From NCBI GenBank assembly GCA_009773205.1, contig WPAE01000038.1:1-35075 (forward strand): 35,075 nucleotides of DNA, written 5' to 3'. Below the pieces are notes generated by a model, which saw nothing but the letters and a program-made list of their open reading frames with translations, was not told where the DNA came from and did no database searches. This document shows, piece after piece, positions 8,494-16,569 of this stretch (position 1 is the first letter of the stretch; each line of letters opens with the position of its first letter). A program made the translations under genes and the position numbers. This DNA comes from Ignavibacteria bacterium. GTDB lineage: Bacteria > Bacteroidota > Ignavibacteria > Ignavibacteriales > Melioribacteraceae.

Positions 8494-8739
8494 ATGGCGG
8501 TTACAACAAAAATAGCAATTTCGATTGATAAAAGAGTTTTGAATAGAATTGATAAATTAGTTGAGAACAGAATTTTTACTAATCGAAGCAGAGCTATACA
8601 GACTGCAATCGAAGAAAAAATATCAAAACTTGATAAATCCAGATTAGCTGTTGAAAGCGCTAAACTTAATAAAGCCGAAGAGCAGCAATTATCGGATGAA
8701 GGTTCACATATTGATTTGACAGAATGTCCAGAATATTAA
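8494..8739 (+). CDS. Ribbon-helix-helix antitoxin (MazE/CopG-like)
   Basis: An 81-aa protein whose N-terminal half, TKIAISIDKRVLNRIDKLVE and FTNRSRAIQTAI, fits a ribbon-helix-helix DNA-binding domain: a short strand for dimer pairing, then two helices. The C-terminal part is charged (SKLDKSRLAVESAKLNKAEEQ) and ends acidic, as expected for the toxin-binding tail. The gene overlaps the MazF-type toxin gene by 16 bases. It is expected to bind the palindrome at 8463-8485 and repress the operon alone or with the toxin. The GGAGAAGAA before the ATG serves as ribosome site. Confidence 0.88.
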   Translation: MAVTTKIAISIDKRVLNRIDKLVENRIFTNRSRAIQTAIEEKISKLDKSRLAVESAKLNKAEEQQLSDEGSHIDLTECPEY

Positions 8740-9062
8740 GAGGAGATATAGTTTGGGCAAATCTTGACCCAACTGTTGGCACTGAACAATCTGGGAAAAG
8801 ACCGGTTTTGATAATAAGCCATAATGTTTTTAATGAGAATTCCGGAACCGTTATAGCCGTTGCTTTAACTAGCAAAGTACAAAAAGCCGGTTTCCCACTA
8901 ACACTCGAAATCAATTCTAAAAACCTTCCTAAAAAATCATGGATAAAAATCAGCCAGATAAGAACACTATCTTTTGATAGAATAGGCGAAAGAATAACTC
9001 ACCTTAAAGAAGAAGAATTAATTAGTGTTATCGAAGGAATTAATGAAATAATTGGTGGTTAA
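8724..9062 (+). CDS. mazF: MazF/PemK-family mRNA interferase toxin
   Basis: A 112-aa toxin that cuts RNA at short specific sequences and slows growth when free of antitoxin. The N-terminal RGDIVWANLDPTVGTEQSGKRPVLIIS is a textbook MazF/PemK start, with the conserved Arg and Gly-Asp before the first strand and the GxEQxGxRP loop. Further on, TVIAVALTSK and KKSWIKISQIRTLSFDRI match the later conserved strands; the Ser-Gln-Ile-Arg part is typical. The length is normal and the gene looks intact. The start overlaps the antitoxin end, which couples their translation. The RNA target sequence cannot be read from the protein. Confidence 0.93.
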   Translation: MSRILRGDIVWANLDPTVGTEQSGKRPVLIISHNVFNENSGTVIAVALTSKVQKAGFPLTLEINSKNLPKKSWIKISQIRTLSFDRIGERITHLKEEELISVIEGINEIIGG

Positions 9063-9245: not shown

Positions 9246-11639
9246 ATGAAGCGATTCTTTTCTTTCGTTGTTCTTTTGGCTGCACTTCTCACATCTCAAA
9301 TTTTTTCACAAACCGATCCGGTCGTTCAAAAGATTTTAGAAATTGGAAAAATAGATAACCAAACAATGCGTCATTTGGATATTCTATGCAACAGAATTGG
9401 CGGCAGGGTAACAGGCTCGGATGCTTACACTACTGCGGCTAATTGGGTGTTGAGTGAATTTAGAAATTGGGGAATTAAAGCTGAGTTTGATGAGTCTGGC
9501 GAACTTCCTGTTGGATTTAACCGCGGCGCATGGTTTGGTAAAATGATGAAACCAAAAACCATGACTCTTGAGTTTGGAACTCCAGCATATACTTCGGGAA
9601 CAAAAGGAGTTCAGAGAGGACACGTTGTAATTCTTCCAACAACTCTTTCAAAATTTGATTCCCTTAAAGAAAAAATTAAAGGCGCGTGGGTATTAGTTGA
9701 TGGAATAAGTGAAGGCTGGCCGCTTGACCGTGATTCAGTTTCCCTACTAACAAAGACTCTTGTTGCTGCAGGCGCTCTTGGAACAATTCAACTATCTAAG
9801 CTTCCAATTCACTTGTTAGATGCGCGCTACAAAATTTATTGGAATAGTTTGCCAACACTGCCTGATATAAAATTATTAGACACACAATTCAACGAAATAA
9901 AATCTTTGGTTGAAACCGGAGAGGAAGTAATTCTCGAATTCGACATTCGCAATTTCTTTAAGCCGGGACCGATTAAATATCATAATGTAATTGGAATTAT
10001 TCCTGGAACAGAATTTCCGAATGAGTTTGTAGTACTTGGCGCTCATTTAGATTCTTACGATCACGCTACAGGCGCGGTTGACAATGGTTCCGGCGTTACT
10101 ACAATGATGGAAGCAATGAGAATGCTTACACTTTCCGGCGCAAAACCAAAGCGTTCAATTATGGTTCATATCTTCGCAGCCGAAGAAAGAGGTTTGCTCG
10201 GTTCTAAATCTTGGGTAGAGAAAAACAAAAAATTGCTACCTAAAATTTCTGTAATGCTTAACAAAGATTTCGGAACAAATCCAATCGTTGGAATCAGCGT
10301 TCCAAAAGTTATGATGGAGCAAACTAAAACTGTTGTTGAGCCAATCCTGAACGCAGGGTTTAAATACCCTTTTAAGTTGAACGAAACCGGGCAGTTTAGA
10401 AAAGCAGGAAGAGGCGGAACAGATAGTCATTCATTTTTGATGCAAGGAGTTCCTACGCCTCGGTTAAATTCCGCTGGACCGCATCAATACGGAAGGACTT
10501 GGCACACACTATTCGATACTTACAACGAAATTATTACAGATGCGCAAGAAGAATCATCTGTTAAAATTGCATTGCTCGCTTACGGTTTTGCAAACCTTGA
10601 TAAAATTCTTACACGCGAAGGCGCTTTTGTTCCTGATGGAATTTATGCGGACGTAAACACAAACAAAGGAAGAATTACTTTAGCGTTAGATTATGAACAC
10701 GCACCAACGACAGTTTCAAATTTTATTGGATTAGCAGAAGGAACCATTAAAAACGAAGCCGTTCCATTAGGAAAAGCATATTACAATAATGTTGTTTGGC
10801 ATCGTGTTGTTCCAGGACATGTTATTCAAGCCGGCATGCCTGCCGTACAGGAAGGTAAAGAGACCGAAGGACCGGGTTACGAATTCCCAAACGAAATTTA
10901 CACAGGAATTTCACACAACAAAGCCGGAATGCTTGGAATGGCAAATGCCGGCCCGCATACAAATGGAAGCCAGTTTTACATAACACTTGCAGACCGTTCT
11001 TACTTAGATGGTAATTACACTTTATTCGGCTGGGTTACAGAAGGAATGGATGTTGTAAATAAAATTGCTCAAGGCGATACTATTAGAAACATTGCTATAA
11101 CACGAATTGGCGAAAAAGCTAATGCTTTCAAAGTATCAACAGAATCATTTATTAAAATGGTTGATGAAGCAAAGGCAAAAGTAAAATTAGATGAAGTAAG
11201 AAGAATAAAAATAGAGAACCAAATTATTTCTAACGATTATGCAACAGCATTAACAACTTCCAGTGGATTGAAATACATAGTTAAGAAAGAAGGAAACGGA
11301 GAAAAACCCGCAGCCGGAACAGTTATTAAAGCAAATTATAAAGGAAAATTTTTGATTGACGGAACTGAATTTGTAAGCACAAACATCGAAGGAAGAGCAA
11401 ACAATATTGATACAAAAGAAATTTTTGACTATGAAGTTGGCAAAACAAAAATTAATCCCGCAGTTGATGAAATGTTAGCCGAGATGAAGCCTGGCGAAGT
11501 TCGTTTAGTAATTGTTCCATCAAATCTTGCATTTGGAGCTAATGCTTTCTATGGTAAATCTGTTGAAGGAAAGAAACGCTTTGTTATTTCTCCTAACACA
11601 AGTTTGGTTTATGAGATTGAAGTGATAGAAAAGAAATAG
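9246..11639 (+). CDS. M28 metallopeptidase fused to cyclophilin and FKBP
   Basis: An exported 797-aa protein with three enzyme domains in one chain. Residues 1-22 are a signal peptide (cut near QIFSQ). Residues about 23-455 form an M28 peptidase of the carboxypeptidase Q type. Its zinc ligands are His267 (GAHLDS), Asp279 (VDNGSG), Glu313/314 (AAEERGL), Asp341 (NKDFG) and a late His near 420 (WHTLFDT). Residues about 467-625 are a cyclophilin-type prolyl isomerase (FHRV-like WHRVVPG, MANAGPHTNGSQFYI). Residues about 683-796 are an FKBP-type isomerase (GTVIKANYKGKF, FGANAF, ISPNTSLVYEIEV). The ATG at 9246 with AGGA eight bases upstream is preferred over the TTG at 9207. It probably acts in the periplasm or at the surface in peptide breakdown together with protein folding. 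Its 3' end is duplicated at 12820-12952. Confidence 0.92.
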   Translation: MKRFFSFVVLLAALLTSQIFSQTDPVVQKILEIGKIDNQTMRHLDILCNRIGGRVTGSDAYTTAANWVLSEFRNWGIKAEFDESGELPVGFNRGAWFGKMMKPKTMTLEFGTPAYTSGTKGVQRGHVVILPTTLSKFDSLKEKIKGAWVLVDGISEGWPLDRDSVSLLTKTLVAAGALGTIQLSKLPIHLLDARYKIYWNSLPTLPDIKLLDTQFNEIKSLVETGEEVILEFDIRNFFKPGPIKYHNVIGIIPGTEFPNEFVVLGAHLDSYDHATGAVDNGSGVTTMMEAMRMLTLSGAKPKRSIMVHIFAAEERGLLGSKSWVEKNKKLLPKISVMLNKDFGTNPIVGISVPKVMMEQTKTVVEPILNAGFKYPFKLNETGQFRKAGRGGTDSHSFLMQGVPTPRLNSAGPHQYGRTWHTLFDTYNEIITDAQEESSVKIALLAYGFANLDKILTREGAFVPDGIYADVNTNKGRITLALDYEHAPTTVSNFIGLAEGTIKNEAVPLGKAYYNNVVWHRVVPGHVIQAGMPAVQEGKETEGPGYEFPNEIYTGISHNKAGMLGMANAGPHTNGSQFYITLADRSYLDGNYTLFGWVTEGMDVVNKIAQGDTIRNIAITRIGEKANAFKVSTESFIKMVDEAKAKVKLDEVRRIKIENQIISNDYATALTTSSGLKYIVKKEGNGEKPAAGTVIKANYKGKFLIDGTEFVSTNIEGRANNIDTKEIFDYEVGKTKINPAVDEMLAEMKPGEVRLVIVPSNLAFGANAFYGKSVEGKKRFVISPNTSLVYEIEVIEKK

Positions 11640-11760: not shown

Positions 11761-12790
11761 ATGAGTTTAGAAATTACATCAAATAAAGAATATAAGAAGT
11801 GGCTTGCCGAGCTAAAGACTAAAGTCCGCACTACTCAGTTAAAAGCAGCAGTTAGTGTAAATAAAGAGCTGCTCACACTCTATTGGGAAATGGGCGCAGA
11901 TATTGTTTCAAAACAATCTGAAGCCAAATGGGGCAATAGTTTTCTATTTCAACTTAGTAAAGATTTAAAAGCCGAATTTCCGGAAGTAAAGGGATTTTCT
12001 TTAAGCAATCTTAAATATATCAAGCAATGGTATTTGTTTTACTCTCAATCGGAAATAATAAGCCAACAACCTGTTGCCCAAATTACGAAACAAGTTGTTT
12101 CGCAATTGCCTATGGTATCAATTAGCCAACAGACTGTTGGCTTAATTAGGCAGCAAGCTGTTTCCCTAATTACACAAATCCCTTGGGGGCATAACATTGC
12201 TATCATCGCAAAATGCAAGAACATTGGTGAGGCGCTTTTCTATATTCAAAAAACTATCGAGAATGGATGGAGCCGCAGTATTCTAATTCATCAGATAGAG
12301 AGCGGTTTATTCCAGCGAGAAGGAAGCTCGGTGAACAACTTTGCCATTACACTGCCTTCGCGGACTTGTTGATCATTTAACTCAATTCCTTTTGGAACTT
12401 GGCGCCGGGTTTGCATATCTGGGAAGACAGATACAAATTAATGTGGGAGAGAGGGAATTCTTTCTCGATCTTCTCTTCTACCATACACGGCTTAACTGTT
12501 ATGTTGTGGTGGAACTTAAAACCGGAGATTTTGAACCGGAGTTTGCCGGCAAACTCAATATTTATATTAAAGCGGTTAATGCTCATTTTAGAAAAAAAGG
12601 AGATGAACCGACAATAGGCATTCTGCTCTGCAAGAAAAAGGATAAACTTGTTGCCGAGTACGCTCTTAGTGATATACATAAACCAATTGGTGTTTCCGAA
12701 TATCAGTTAACGCAATCTTTGCTTCATAGTTTAAAACAAAGCCTGCCAAGTATTGAAGAAATTGAAAGAGAATTTGATTCAGAGAGATAA
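11761..12790 (+). pseudogene. Decayed YhcG-type (DUF1016) nuclease gene
   Basis: Two adjacent frames make up a PDDEXK-fold (RecB-like) nuclease of the DUF1016/YhcG family. The first part (11761-12372) has the N-terminal winged-helix domain: EYKKWLAELKTKVRTTQ, LLTLYWEMG, and the family's IPWGHN motif near residue 140. The second (about 12355-12790, shifted frame) has the nuclease core: GFAYLGRQIQI, FFLDLLFYHTRLNCYVVVELK, GDFEPEFAGKL and AEYALSDIHKPIGVSEYQL. At the junction (about 12355) roughly 30-35 residues normally present between the LP(A/S) motif and the QFLLELG helix are missing and the frame is lost. This fits one deletion, not a sequencing slip. The middle also carries an unusual run of short QQ-V-type repeats. 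The whole gene lies inside a segment bounded by direct repeats, which suggests horizontal arrival. Confidence 0.88.
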
Positions 12791-12973: not shown

Positions 12974-14197
12974 ATGAAACTACTATCAAATTTAGTTCTA
13001 ACAGTCATCACCTTTACATTTATCTCTTGCGTAGATAAAGTGAGCGATCCAATTGCGGAACCGCCGCGCGAACTAACCGTTATGGAAAAACAACTCGTTG
13101 GTTCATCAGATAATTTTTCGTTCAAACTCTTTAAAAAAGTTTATGAAGCCGAGCCGGGCGAAAATTTGTTTATCTCGCCGTTAAGTGTTTCTATGGCGCT
13201 TGGCATGACAATGAACGGCGCAGACGGCACAACCTATGAAGCGATGAAATCAACTTTATCTTTGAACGCATTTACTAAACAGCAAGCGAATGAAACTTAT
13301 CAATCTCTTATGGGCTTGCTTGGTTCTATTGATCCCAAAGTTATATTGAACATAGCCAACTCAATTTGGTATAACAAAAATTTTTCTTTCCAAACCGATT
13401 TCATAGAAACAAACAAAAAATATTTTAACGCGGTTGTTAATGCTATGAACTTTGGAGATCCGGCAACTATTACAACAATAAATAATTGGGTAAAAAATGC
13501 TACTAAAGATAAAATTGAAAAGATAGTTGAACAGATTTCTCCCGAAACTATAATGTATCTCATCAATGCTATTTACTTTAAGGGAGCTTGGAAGCACCAG
13601 TTTGATAAGACAAAAACATACGATGACTTTTTTACAACGAACGAAGGGAAACAAGTTTCTGTTAAAATGATGCGGCAGGAAAATGATTATTCAACTTACA
13701 CCAATAATTTGTTTACCGCTGTTGATCTCCCTTATTCATCAGGCGCATTTAGTATGATGCTTTTCCTTCCTAACAAGAGTAAAAACTTAAAAGACGCTGC
13801 CGAGTTCTTAACAAAAGAAAACTTCGATTCGATTTCCAAAAACTTTACAATTTCAAAAAAGAATTTGTTTCTGCCGCGCTTTAAGCTGGAATACAAATTA
13901 AAACTAAACGATGCTCTAATTGCACTTGGAATGGGCGACGCCTTCGACCGAGACAAAGCTAACTTTAAGAAACTTTATTCTGGAATTGGCAATGCTTACA
14001 TCAGCGAAGTACTTCACAAAACTTATGTTGATGTAAACGAAGAAGGAACTGAAGCCGCCGCTGTTACTTCAGTTGAAATCGGCGTTACCTCAATAATGGA
14101 TAACAATATAAAGTTTGATAAGCCGTTCTTATTTTTGATACGTGAGAAAAACAGCGGGTCCATTTTGTTTATAGGCACAGTAAACAACCCGTCTTAA
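12974..14197 (+). CDS. Serpin-family lipoprotein (protease inhibitor)
   Basis: A 407-aa serpin with a lipoprotein signal (FISC, Cys19) and a short linker before the serpin fold. Family landmarks are ENLFISPLSVSMALGMTMNGADGTT (63-87), NSIWYNKNF, NAIYFKGAWKHQFD (198-211), LPRFKLEY and the closing FDKPFLFLIRE and GTVNNP. The reactive-centre loop keeps the inhibitory hinge: EEGTEAAAVTS at 356-366 has Gly at P15, Thr at P14 and small residues at P12-P10. Counting as in alpha-1-antitrypsin puts P1-P1' at about Thr372-Ser373. It probably traps proteases at the cell surface, including foreign ones. It follows a secreted peptidase gene; direct inhibition is unlikely because serpins act on serine and cysteine proteases. 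A GGAG ribosome site precedes the ATG. Confidence 0.92.
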   Translation: MKLLSNLVLTVITFTFISCVDKVSDPIAEPPRELTVMEKQLVGSSDNFSFKLFKKVYEAEPGENLFISPLSVSMALGMTMNGADGTTYEAMKSTLSLNAFTKQQANETYQSLMGLLGSIDPKVILNIANSIWYNKNFSFQTDFIETNKKYFNAVVNAMNFGDPATITTINNWVKNATKDKIEKIVEQISPETIMYLINAIYFKGAWKHQFDKTKTYDDFFTTNEGKQVSVKMMRQENDYSTYTNNLFTAVDLPYSSGAFSMMLFLPNKSKNLKDAAEFLTKENFDSISKNFTISKKNLFLPRFKLEYKLKLNDALIALGMGDAFDRDKANFKKLYSGIGNAYISEVLHKTYVDVNEEGTEAAAVTSVEIGVTSIMDNNIKFDKPFLFLIREKNSGSILFIGTVNNPS

Positions 14198-14267: not shown

Positions 14268-16569
14268 TTATTTTAGTAACAAAAGTTTTTTGGTTCTAAT
14301 AAAACTGCCGGCTTTTATCTGGTAAAAATATACACCGCTTGCAAACTTACTTGCATTCCAGTCAGCTTCATGATACCCTGCATCCATCTCCATATTTATA
14401 AGCTCAGCTACTTTTTCTCCAAGTAAGCTATAAATGCTAAGGTTTACATTTTCTCTCTCCAGTAATGCAAATTTTATTTTGGTGGTTGGATTAAAAGGGT
14501 TTGGATAGTTTTGGAAAAGATTATATGTAACTGGTAAATCTGTTTTCACATCTTCAACACTAACAGGCTGTTGCGTATATTTTATAGTTGTATAAATTGA
14601 CCAACCATTACCAGTACTTGTACCTGTAACATAAACATTTCCTGAACCATCTACCGATATAGCTCTTGCATAGTCATCAGAATTCCCAGGTCCATTGTAT
14701 CTTTGAACCCATTGCACTAATCCATTTGAATTGTATTTTATTGTTGCGTAATCATAATAAGTGCCTGAACCAGCACTCTCTCCAGTAACATAAACATTTC
14801 CTGAACCGTCTACTGATATTGCTGTTGCCCAGTCCTCAGAATTCCCAGGTCCATTGTATCTTTGAACCCATTGCTCTATTCCATTTGAATTGTATTTTAT
14901 TGTTGCGTAATCATCATCTACCGATATAGCAGTTGCCGCGTCATTAGAATTCCCAGGACCATTGTATCTTTGAACCCATTGCTCTATTCCATTTGAATTG
15001 TATTTTATTGTTGCGTAATCAGAGGAAGTGCCTGAACCAACACTCCGTCCAGTAACATAAATATTTCCTGAACCGTCTACTGTTAGGGCTATTGCCTCGT
15101 CATCAGAATTCCCAGGTCCATTGTATCCTTGACCCCATTGGACTATTCCATTTGAATTGTATTTTATTGTTGCGTAATCAGAGGAAGTGCCTAAAACAGA
15201 ACTCCGTCCTGTAACATAAACATTTCCTGAACCATCTACCGATATAGCTGTTGCGTCGTCAGAAGAATTCCCAGGACCATTGTATCTTTGAACCCATTGC
15301 TCTATTCCATTTGAATTGTATTTTATTGTTGCGTAATCAGAGAAAGTGCCTGAACCAACACTCCGTCCAGTAACATAAACTTGCCTCGTCAAAAGAATTC
15401 CCAGGACCATTGTATCTTTGAACCCATTGCTCTATTCCATTTGAATTGTATTTTATTGTTGCGTAATCCCTAGAAGTGCCTGAACCAACACTCCGTCCAC
15501 TAACATAAACATTTCCTGAACCGTCTACTGTTAGGGCTATTGCCTCGTCATCAGAATTCCCAGGACCATTGTATCTTTGAACCCATTGCTCTATTCCATT
15601 TGAATTGTATTTTATTGTTGCGTAATCATCATCAGTGCCTGAACCATAACTCAATCCAGTAACGTAAACATTTCCTGAACCGTCTACTGTTAGGGCTATT
15701 GCCTCGTCATAAGAATTCCCAGGTCCATTGTATCTTTGAACCCATTGCTCTATTCCATTTGAATTGTATTTTATTGTTGCGTAATCCGAAGAAGTGCCTG
15801 AACCAACACTCAATCCAGTAACATAAACATTTCCTGAACCGTCTACTGTTAGGGCTATTGCCTCGTCATCAGAATTCCCAGATCCATTGTATCTTTGAAC
15901 CCATTGCACTAATCCATTTGAATTGTATTTTATTGTTGCGTAATCATGAGAAGTGCCTGAACCATAACTCCGTCCAGTAACATAAACATTTCCCGAACCA
16001 TCTACCGATATAGCTGTTGCTACATTATCAATATATTGATCACCACCATACCTAGCACTCCAAACTAAATCACCTGATGCGTTATATTTAACAGTATAAT
16101 AATCTGTACCGAATGGCAGCTTAGTGCTATATCCAGTTATGTAGACATTTCCTAAATTGTCAATTGCAATATTGGTTGCTACATCAGAACTTGGAGCAAG
16201 TCCAGAACCATAATGTTTAACCCAAGCAGCATTATTTGACTCAGCAACGTCACCTTTAATGCCTCTCTTGTTTAACTCATTATGTAAATTTATTCCAGTT
16301 TCTTTCTCTGTTCTATCTGACCTTAAATTAAGCCTCTTACTTATTCTTTCTGGAAATGCATCATCTTCGGTTAAAACTATATCGGAGAGAAATTTTCTAC
16401 GTATGTCTTTATCTTCACCGATACGATTATTCTTTTTAAAATGGCTTAAGCCATAGGACTGGTAGTCTCTATCTTGAAAGAGTAATCTACTTCTTTTGTC
16501 AACCCCTTGTGGTAACGCAGTAGATATGAAAACAAATAGAATCATAACAATAGCCAAAAGTGATTTCAT
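14268..16569 (-). pseudogene. Frame-broken SBBP beta-propeller protein with T9SS signal
   Basis: One gene now split in two frames. The first part (16569 to about 15382) has a signal peptide (MKSLLAIVMILFVFISTALPQ) and four near-identical 53-residue SBBP-type repeats after a diverged first one. Each repeat reads DYATIKYNSNG, then VQRYNGPGNS and DGSGNVYVTG. The second (about 15380 to 14268) continues with five more repeats and ends in a T9SS type A sorting domain (NLFQNYPNPFNPTT to the final LLLLK). At 15380-15382 one repeat has lost 29 bases (130 instead of 159), shifting the frame. Another repeat near 14930 lost 51 bases but stays in frame. Restored, it would be a secreted surface protein of about 780 aa. 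It could be a phase-variable gene; assembly error in the repeats is also possible. Confidence 0.85.
14625..16022 (-). repeat. Nine 159-bp near-identical coding repeats
   Basis: Marker words at 14744, 14903, 15011, 15170, 15329, 15459, 15618, 15777 and 15936 are spaced 159 bases apart except for one 108-base and one 130-base interval. The DNA is nearly identical from copy to copy, much more than is needed to conserve the protein. That points to recent duplication or conversion by recombination. Confidence 0.92.

Follow-up and report, generated by a model that had tools for sequence, protein, structure and literature searches.

A peptidase, a cyclophilin and an FKBP domain in one reading frame

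The DNA analyzed here, referred to as the window, is a stretch of 35,075 nucleotides from an Ignavibacteria bacterium of the family Melioribacteraceae. Its forward strand carries an open frame at 9246–11639 (ATG at 9246, stop codon at 11637–11639) that encodes 797 amino acids as a single chain, of which 19 distinct versions were compared. Pfam assigns three domains to this chain: Peptidase_M28 at residues 247–434 (PF04389; E = 1.2e-33, 116.9 bits against a Pfam cut-off of 21.3), a cyclophilin at residues 467–618 (PF00160; E = 2.7e-39, 135.4 bits against 21.7) and FKBP_C at residues 686–794 (PF00254; E = 2.1e-16, 60.5 bits against 21.1). The architecture named in the original prediction is a near certainty. 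Pfam found no further protease domain and no TPR in the chain.

Residues 1–21 (9246–9308) form a probable Sec signal peptide without a lipobox cysteine; it was assigned by eye, and relatives begin alike. The claimed export of the protein is probable. The peptidase region follows at residues 22–463 (9309–10634), and the cyclophilin domain occupies 10644–11099. A linker at residues 632–664 (11139–11237) then leads to the derived FKBP domain at 11301–11627, which is also supported by alignments. An AlphaFold2 model of the full chain (22 sequences, mean pLDDT 80.7, pTM 0.70) predicts this linker as one long helix of 33 residues that joins the cyclophilin to the FKBP. Parts of the metal-site loop (271–277) and the inserted FKBP 80s loop (765–782) have a pLDDT below 50. 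Structure comparison with VIA-align was limited to the peptidase region (query, residues 22–463 of the model) and gave the M28 peptidase 3iib as the best match to residues 23–463 (Z = 30.5), followed by transferrin receptors, glutamate carboxypeptidases and aminopeptidases lying close together at Z = 23–25. The same genome has two other frames that encode cyclophilins, one of 212 and one of 168 residues.

Upstream of the gene lies a MazF/PemK-type toxin gene (8724–9062, + strand; PF02452); in the related locus L005, this position holds another gene, MFS transporter-like by eye. Downstream, a DUF1016/YhcG nuclease is encoded at 11761–12790 (+ strand) in two overlapping frames (PF17761 and PF06250), which correspond to one 376-aa frame in L005. 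A serpin gene follows at 12974–14197 (+ strand; PF00079, E = 7.1e-114); by eye, its start resembles that of a lipoprotein. On the opposite strand, 14268–16569 holds two overlapping frames with SBBP beta-propeller repeats, one of them ending in a Por secretion tail; together they may represent a single secreted repeat protein disrupted by a frameshift. We considered a conserved operon and rejected it as a general rule; recurrent neighbor clusters reach at most 8 of 14 loci. The commonest neighbor (up to 8 of 14 loci) is a large protein encoded upstream on the opposite strand. A serpin lies downstream in 5 of the 14 loci and also follows the gene in the named loci L040 and L042; three of the 14 loci have less than 1.3 kb of downstream sequence. 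Five of the 20 genomes with the three-domain protein, a part or a variant have one serpin each, on the same contig within ~1.7 kb downstream in G000, G001, G003 and G017 and on another contig in G076; among the 58 relatives searched, seven have a serpin.

Distribution of the three-domain protein

We collected 19 distinct three-domain proteins (hereafter triples), counting each protein once: 13 from the family of the window, its own included, five from named metagenome-assembled genomes (L037–L040 and L042), and one from genome G1349. The other 18 are 53–81% identical to the window's. Internal stops are absent from 18 of the 19 (L066 and L068 among these are cut by contig ends and L042 has a masked stretch), while in the remaining one, L069 from genome G256, a TAG interrupts the frame near residue 75. 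Nineteen distinct copies rule out a chance open frame and an assembly artefact, the latter an objection that had been raised with the original prediction. A viral origin was likewise rejected, as a scan of the viral_contigs collection gave no relative.

Both fused and split forms, for which the original prediction had suggested a search, occur. Among 58 relatives (own genome included), five carry the full triple (G000, G001, G005, G013 and G017), G002 and G003 have C-terminal parts at contig starts, G008 has an M28-cyclophilin protein without FKBP, G018 and G027 have M28 only, and G053 has cyclophilin-FKBP only; no triple or part of one was found in the other 47. A scan of the class (391 genomes) gave 17 genomes with matches at E ≤ 1e-45, comprising 13 triples (of which two are truncated at contig ends and the one from G256 has the in-frame TAG), one M28-cyclophilin, two cyclophilin-FKBP proteins without M28 (G053 and G076) and one M28 only. 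These counts, like those for the phylum, the order and the further phyla given below, cover matches below the E threshold of the respective scan.

A scan of the genome_contigs collection matched 28 loci. Those numbered L034–L046 are triples, with titles naming Stygiobacter, Melioribacter, Ignavibacteria(les)/Ignavibacteriae, Melioribacteraceae or Bacteroidetes, and most loci titled Aminicenantes, Acidobacteria, Vicinamibacterales or Gemmatimonadetes encode an M28 peptidase joined to a decayed cyclophilin. In the order of G701 (a genome titled Bacteroidales bacterium Prado049), 38 of 247 genomes match at E ≤ 1e-60. The full triple occurs only in G1349, and G701 itself has two halves at two contig ends. 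Matches in 34 of these genomes are confined to the M28 part, and 12 such loci, read to their ends, contain no cyclophilin; the remaining two have cyclophilin-FKBP proteins, and one of them (G1432) also has a solo M28 elsewhere. No triple was found outside the window's family among 395 genomes of the phylum, which makes the G1349 copy a rarity.

Active-site residues of the three domains

We take the co-catalytic metal ligands of M28 peptidases to be His, Asp, Glu, Asp and His, accompanied by a catalytic Glu. In the window protein the ligands are His267, Asp279, Glu314, Asp341 and His420, and the metal site aligns with that of 3iib. The five ligands, together with Glu313 and Asp269, are found in all 19 distinct triples, in agreement with the claim that every expected zinc ligand is present. 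Of 41 M28-bearing rows, two of which are identical, 39 have all seven positions (His, Asp, Asp, Glu, Glu, Asp, His), and the two incomplete rows are cut by contig ends before the last position. Judged by these residues, the window peptidase has an intact metal site and looks like a working enzyme.

For the cyclophilin, we assume the catalytic residues to be Arg55 and Gln111 and the proline pocket to consist of F60, M61, F113 and L122 plus Trp121 (CypA numbering). Arg55, Ala101, Asn102, Gln111 and Leu122 are present in 19/19 triples and Gln63 in 18/18 readable ones; the catalytic pair corresponds to Arg520 and Gln576 of the window protein. The pocket has changed: F60H, M61V, F113Y, W121Y and H126Y each occur in all 19 triples. 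The window protein accordingly has H525, V526, Y578 and Y586 (19/19), with L122 kept, and the canonical proline pocket is absent. The F60H exchange in this pocket may mean weak isomerase activity. F60 and F113 are kept in all 16 solo cyclophilins compared. The combination F60H/M61V/W121Y/H126Y is also found in two-domain cyclophilin-FKBP proteins from the phyla of G697 (5 of 8) and G699 (4 of 4), where position 113 is Tyr or Cys, and is absent from the 12 two-domain proteins of family f41 and the 16 solo cyclophilins compared. The residue table behind this comparison with two-domain and solo cyclophilins includes 16 triples, among them the duplicate L045 = L064, and leaves out the incomplete pseudocyclophilins L056 and L058; the corresponding FKBP comparison with two-domain proteins covers 15 of those 16 triples, the duplicate included.

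The FKBP domain is altered at the active-site positions Asp37 and Trp59 (FKBP12 numbering). No triple has Asp at the former (0/19) and none of the 18 readable ones has Trp at the latter. Tyr26 and Phe36 are present in 19/19, the Tyr82 position is Tyr or Phe in 18/18 readable triples, and alignments show the 80s loop to be lengthened by an insertion of ~9 residues. The earlier statement that both isomerases keep their core motifs, whose failure on alignment had been named as a possible refutation, thus holds for the cyclophilin pair and fails for the FKBP pocket; as a whole, the observation stands for the architecture and the M28 ligands. According to passages of PMC5034536, the D23A variant of Thermus thermophilus SlyD, which affects the Asp37 equivalent, retains 78% activity, and FKBP activity would therefore be possible despite the loss of Asp37 alone.

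Relatives with a decayed cyclophilin

The M28-pseudocyclophilin proteins occur in the phylum of G697 (Aminicenantes), which we take to be Acidobacteriota in GTDB, and in that of G699 (titled Gemmatimonadetes). Pfam still calls a cyclophilin in four of five tested, and the columns of Asn102 and Gln111 are gaps in all 17 complete rows. Arg occupies the Arg55 column in 3 of the 17, where the columns fall in a poorly alignable loop. The chain ends soon after the pseudocyclophilin, without an FKBP, in 17/17 complete rows. A model of one pseudocyclophilin (9 sequences, pLDDT 75.5, pTM 0.73; the five models range from 46.9 to 75.5, the best two or three being confident) yielded 181 PDB matches at E ≤ 0.001. 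Among the top matches listed, the single-protein rows are cyclophilins and the others large complexes, with TM-scores of ~0.5 and an rmsd mostly of 5–9 Å. The model thus suggests that the decayed domain keeps a cyclophilin-like fold, the structural match being modest in quality. The retention of such a domain on the peptidase favors binding over isomerization in these Acidobacteriota and Gemmatimonadota relatives.

Some of their genomes also encode a separate two-domain cyclophilin-FKBP protein. Among 297 genomes of the G697 phylum, seven have an M28-pseudocyclophilin, seven a two-domain protein and three both (Fisher p = 2.7e-4); among 200 of the G699 phylum, the numbers are three, four and three (Fisher p = 3.0e-6). 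The two proteins thus occur together more often than expected by chance in both phyla, with p-values that ignore shared ancestry. A separate protein of this type is hence present in 6 of 10 M28-pseudocyclophilin genomes (3/7 and 3/3, respectively), and in all six the two genes lie on different contigs. In the other four of the seven such genomes from the G697 phylum, none was found at E ≤ 1e-50.

On a midpoint-rooted cyclophilin tree of 16 triples (one duplicate) and 6 of the 16 solo cyclophilins, with L056 and L058 left out, the branch leading to the pseudocyclophilins is very long, at 1.5 changes per column. A similar R.G..A..F tail follows the cyclophilin in triples, two-domain proteins and pseudocyclophilins, and occurs in none of the 16 solo cyclophilins. 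Descent of the pseudocyclophilins from a cyclophilin of the dual-family type is suggested by this similar tail, its sole basis.

A probable single fusion and a probable loss

In a tree of the M28 columns, 24 rows from the fused group and 10 solo M28 rows fall on opposite sides of one branch (SH-aLRT 100). The former comprise 12 triples, the M28-cyclophilin of G008, 9 M28-pseudocyclophilins and 2 contig-end fragments, one with an end unknown; the tree is unrooted, came from a quick search, and samples 12 of 19 triples, 9 of 19 M28-pseudocyclophilins and 10 of 15 fetched solo M28s. This topology fits the descent of the cyclophilin-joined peptidases from a single old fusion, with the root not fixed. 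A grouping of the M28 domains of the G1349 triple and L055 with the solo peptidases was not rejected (AU p = 0.516), and the G1349 triple may stem from a fusion other than that of the Melioribacteraceae.

A second tree, of the cyclophilin-FKBP part (15 of 19 triples and 8 of 18 fetched f41 two-domain proteins), unites the triples, the proteins of G053, G076 and G1432 and the two-domain proteins of the G697 and G699 phyla in one clade (100/98), and the f41 proteins fall outside it. Within this clade, the G053 protein (L013, 1498–2604) groups with three triples (100/98), and its signal peptide, along with the residues preceding it, is almost identical to that of the L066 triple. From this position and N-terminus, the G053 protein is probably a triple whose M28 part was deleted in frame; its contig is short, and a chimera or assembly error is possible.

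A putative peptide-handling module on a probably exported peptidase

At the level of sequence, a single conserved chain combines an intact peptidase metal site and cyclophilin pair with an altered FKBP pocket. Our preferred reading, to which we assign a probability of roughly 0.42, is that of a secreted M28 zinc exopeptidase that acquired, through what looks to be a single old fusion, a dual-family immunophilin as a peptide-handling module. Outside the cytoplasm, the immunophilin domains would take hold of peptides that are unfolded or contain proline, and the cyclophilin, which retains Arg55 and Gln111 in this lineage, would speed the cis-to-trans change at X-Pro bonds and so let the tethered exopeptidase keep trimming. 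The FKBP, with its altered pocket, would mainly act as a second binding hand. Export, the exopeptidase nature, peptide capture, the cooperation of the domains and the substrate are what we infer here, and the unblocking of proline bonds by the cyclophilin, one of the two functions in the original prediction, is possible. What speaks most for binding by the C-terminal half is that relatives of this peptidase have kept their cyclophilin in decayed form.

In a broader account, which we consider less likely than not, the cyclophilin (with FKBP) would have been recruited once as a peptide-presenting module, serving in one branch as a working isomerase that helps the peptidase past X-Pro bonds and as a binding-only pseudo-isomerase in Acidobacteriota and Gemmatimonadota, where a separate gene would supply the catalytic dual immunophilin. 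If true, a peptidase-isomerase machine would occur in fused and split forms.

Cooperation is opposed by the patchy occurrence of the triple (13 of 391 class genomes) and by modules that stand separately in relatives: cyclophilin-FKBP in G053 and G076, M28-cyclophilin in G008, and M28 alone in G018, G027 and 34 of 247 genomes of the G701 order. The same stand-alone parts would suit the view that peptide scavenging and protein folding merely share an export signal, the fusion being harmless or steadying expression. We hold this to be unlikely, given that the M28 tree is compatible with a single old fusion, found in several phyla and kept even without the Gln111 region. Still less probable, in our estimate, is a tail that acts, once the chain is exported, as an intramolecular chaperone or stabilizer of the M28 domain, or that anchors this domain to a surface or partner. 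The decayed cyclophilin, which has stayed in position with a cyclophilin-like fold, would suit such a structural role, yet M28 relatives without a tail exist and the catalytic pair is kept in 19/19 triples. Periplasmic quality control, in which folding is tried first and failures are digested, had also been proposed and is improbable: folding-type and protease domains do share a chain with a probable signal peptide, but the enzymes nearest to the peptidase among solved structures are aminopeptidases and glutamate carboxypeptidases, which trim the ends of small peptides rather than degrade misfolded proteins, and Pfam gives the chain no other protease domain. Of the original interpretation, the architecture holds as real and conserved; the idea of a folding attempt prior to digestion has become less likely.

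Research usually treats prolyl isomerases and peptidases as distinct enzymes, and here they form a natural single chain. The triple, together with its sister group in which the isomerase is decayed yet retained, would help to discriminate whether cyclophilins serve proteases by isomerizing proline bonds or by holding peptides.

Comparison with known systems

The peptidase region resembles 3iib, an M28 enzyme from Shewanella amazonensis, in its fold over residues 23–463 (22% identity, rmsd 7.3 Å over 395 residues) and, by alignment, in its metal site. The 3iib chain has 442–444 residues against 797 in the window protein, and is thus too short for a cyclophilin or FKBP tail. The M28-pseudocyclophilin proteins have M28 domains 38–42% identical to the window's in long tblastn/blastp matches, an identical joint after the last M28 helix and a similar R.G..A..F tail. 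They differ in the lost Gln111 region, the missing FKBP and, in most, a Gly/Pro-rich loop.

The C-terminal half has a known counterpart in the bacterial cyclophilin-FKBP chimeras termed CFBP, or dual-family immunophilins (Barik; PMC5852385, PMC6316441), which passages of these papers report mainly from Flavobacteria and Spirochetes, with some from Proteobacteria. These passages do not name the phyla of G697 and G699, and in the main texts of both papers the words peptidase, protease, Melioribacter and Ignavibacter do not occur. Among the matches listed for open-licence PMC articles, no paper describes an M28-cyclophilin fusion or an immunophilin attached to a peptidase, which agrees, within that scope, with the claim of an undescribed architecture. 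Eight further loci (L104–L107, L112 and L117–L119) encode dual-family immunophilins from the G697 and G699 phyla, that is Aminicenantes/Acidobacteria and Gemmatimonadetes by the titles of L047 and L052; these are probably exported, some of them with what looks by eye like a lipoprotein signal.

Like CFBP, the C-terminal half of the window protein has a cyclophilin, a TPR-free linker and an FKBP in the same order, and it aligns over the full length with two-domain proteins. CFBP are stand-alone two-domain proteins with a linker described as intrinsically disordered in PMC5852385, whereas the window protein starts with 463 residues of signal peptide and peptidase; its linker (632–664) is predicted by AlphaFold2 to be helical (block pLDDT 76–87). 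Its cyclophilin also carries F60H/M61V/F113Y/W121Y/H126Y and its FKBP lacks Asp37 and Trp59 at their positions, in contrast to the two-domain proteins of f41 (probably Flavobacteriaceae) from the same phylum (n = 12), with F60 in 12/12, Asp37 in 12/12 and Trp59 in 11/12. Genomes of Ignavibacteria, Acidobacteriota and Gemmatimonadota add probably exported dual-family immunophilins with a remodeled active site to this class. The cyclophilin-FKBP half is already known, as CFBP, and what appears to be new, among the articles listed, is its attachment to a peptidase.
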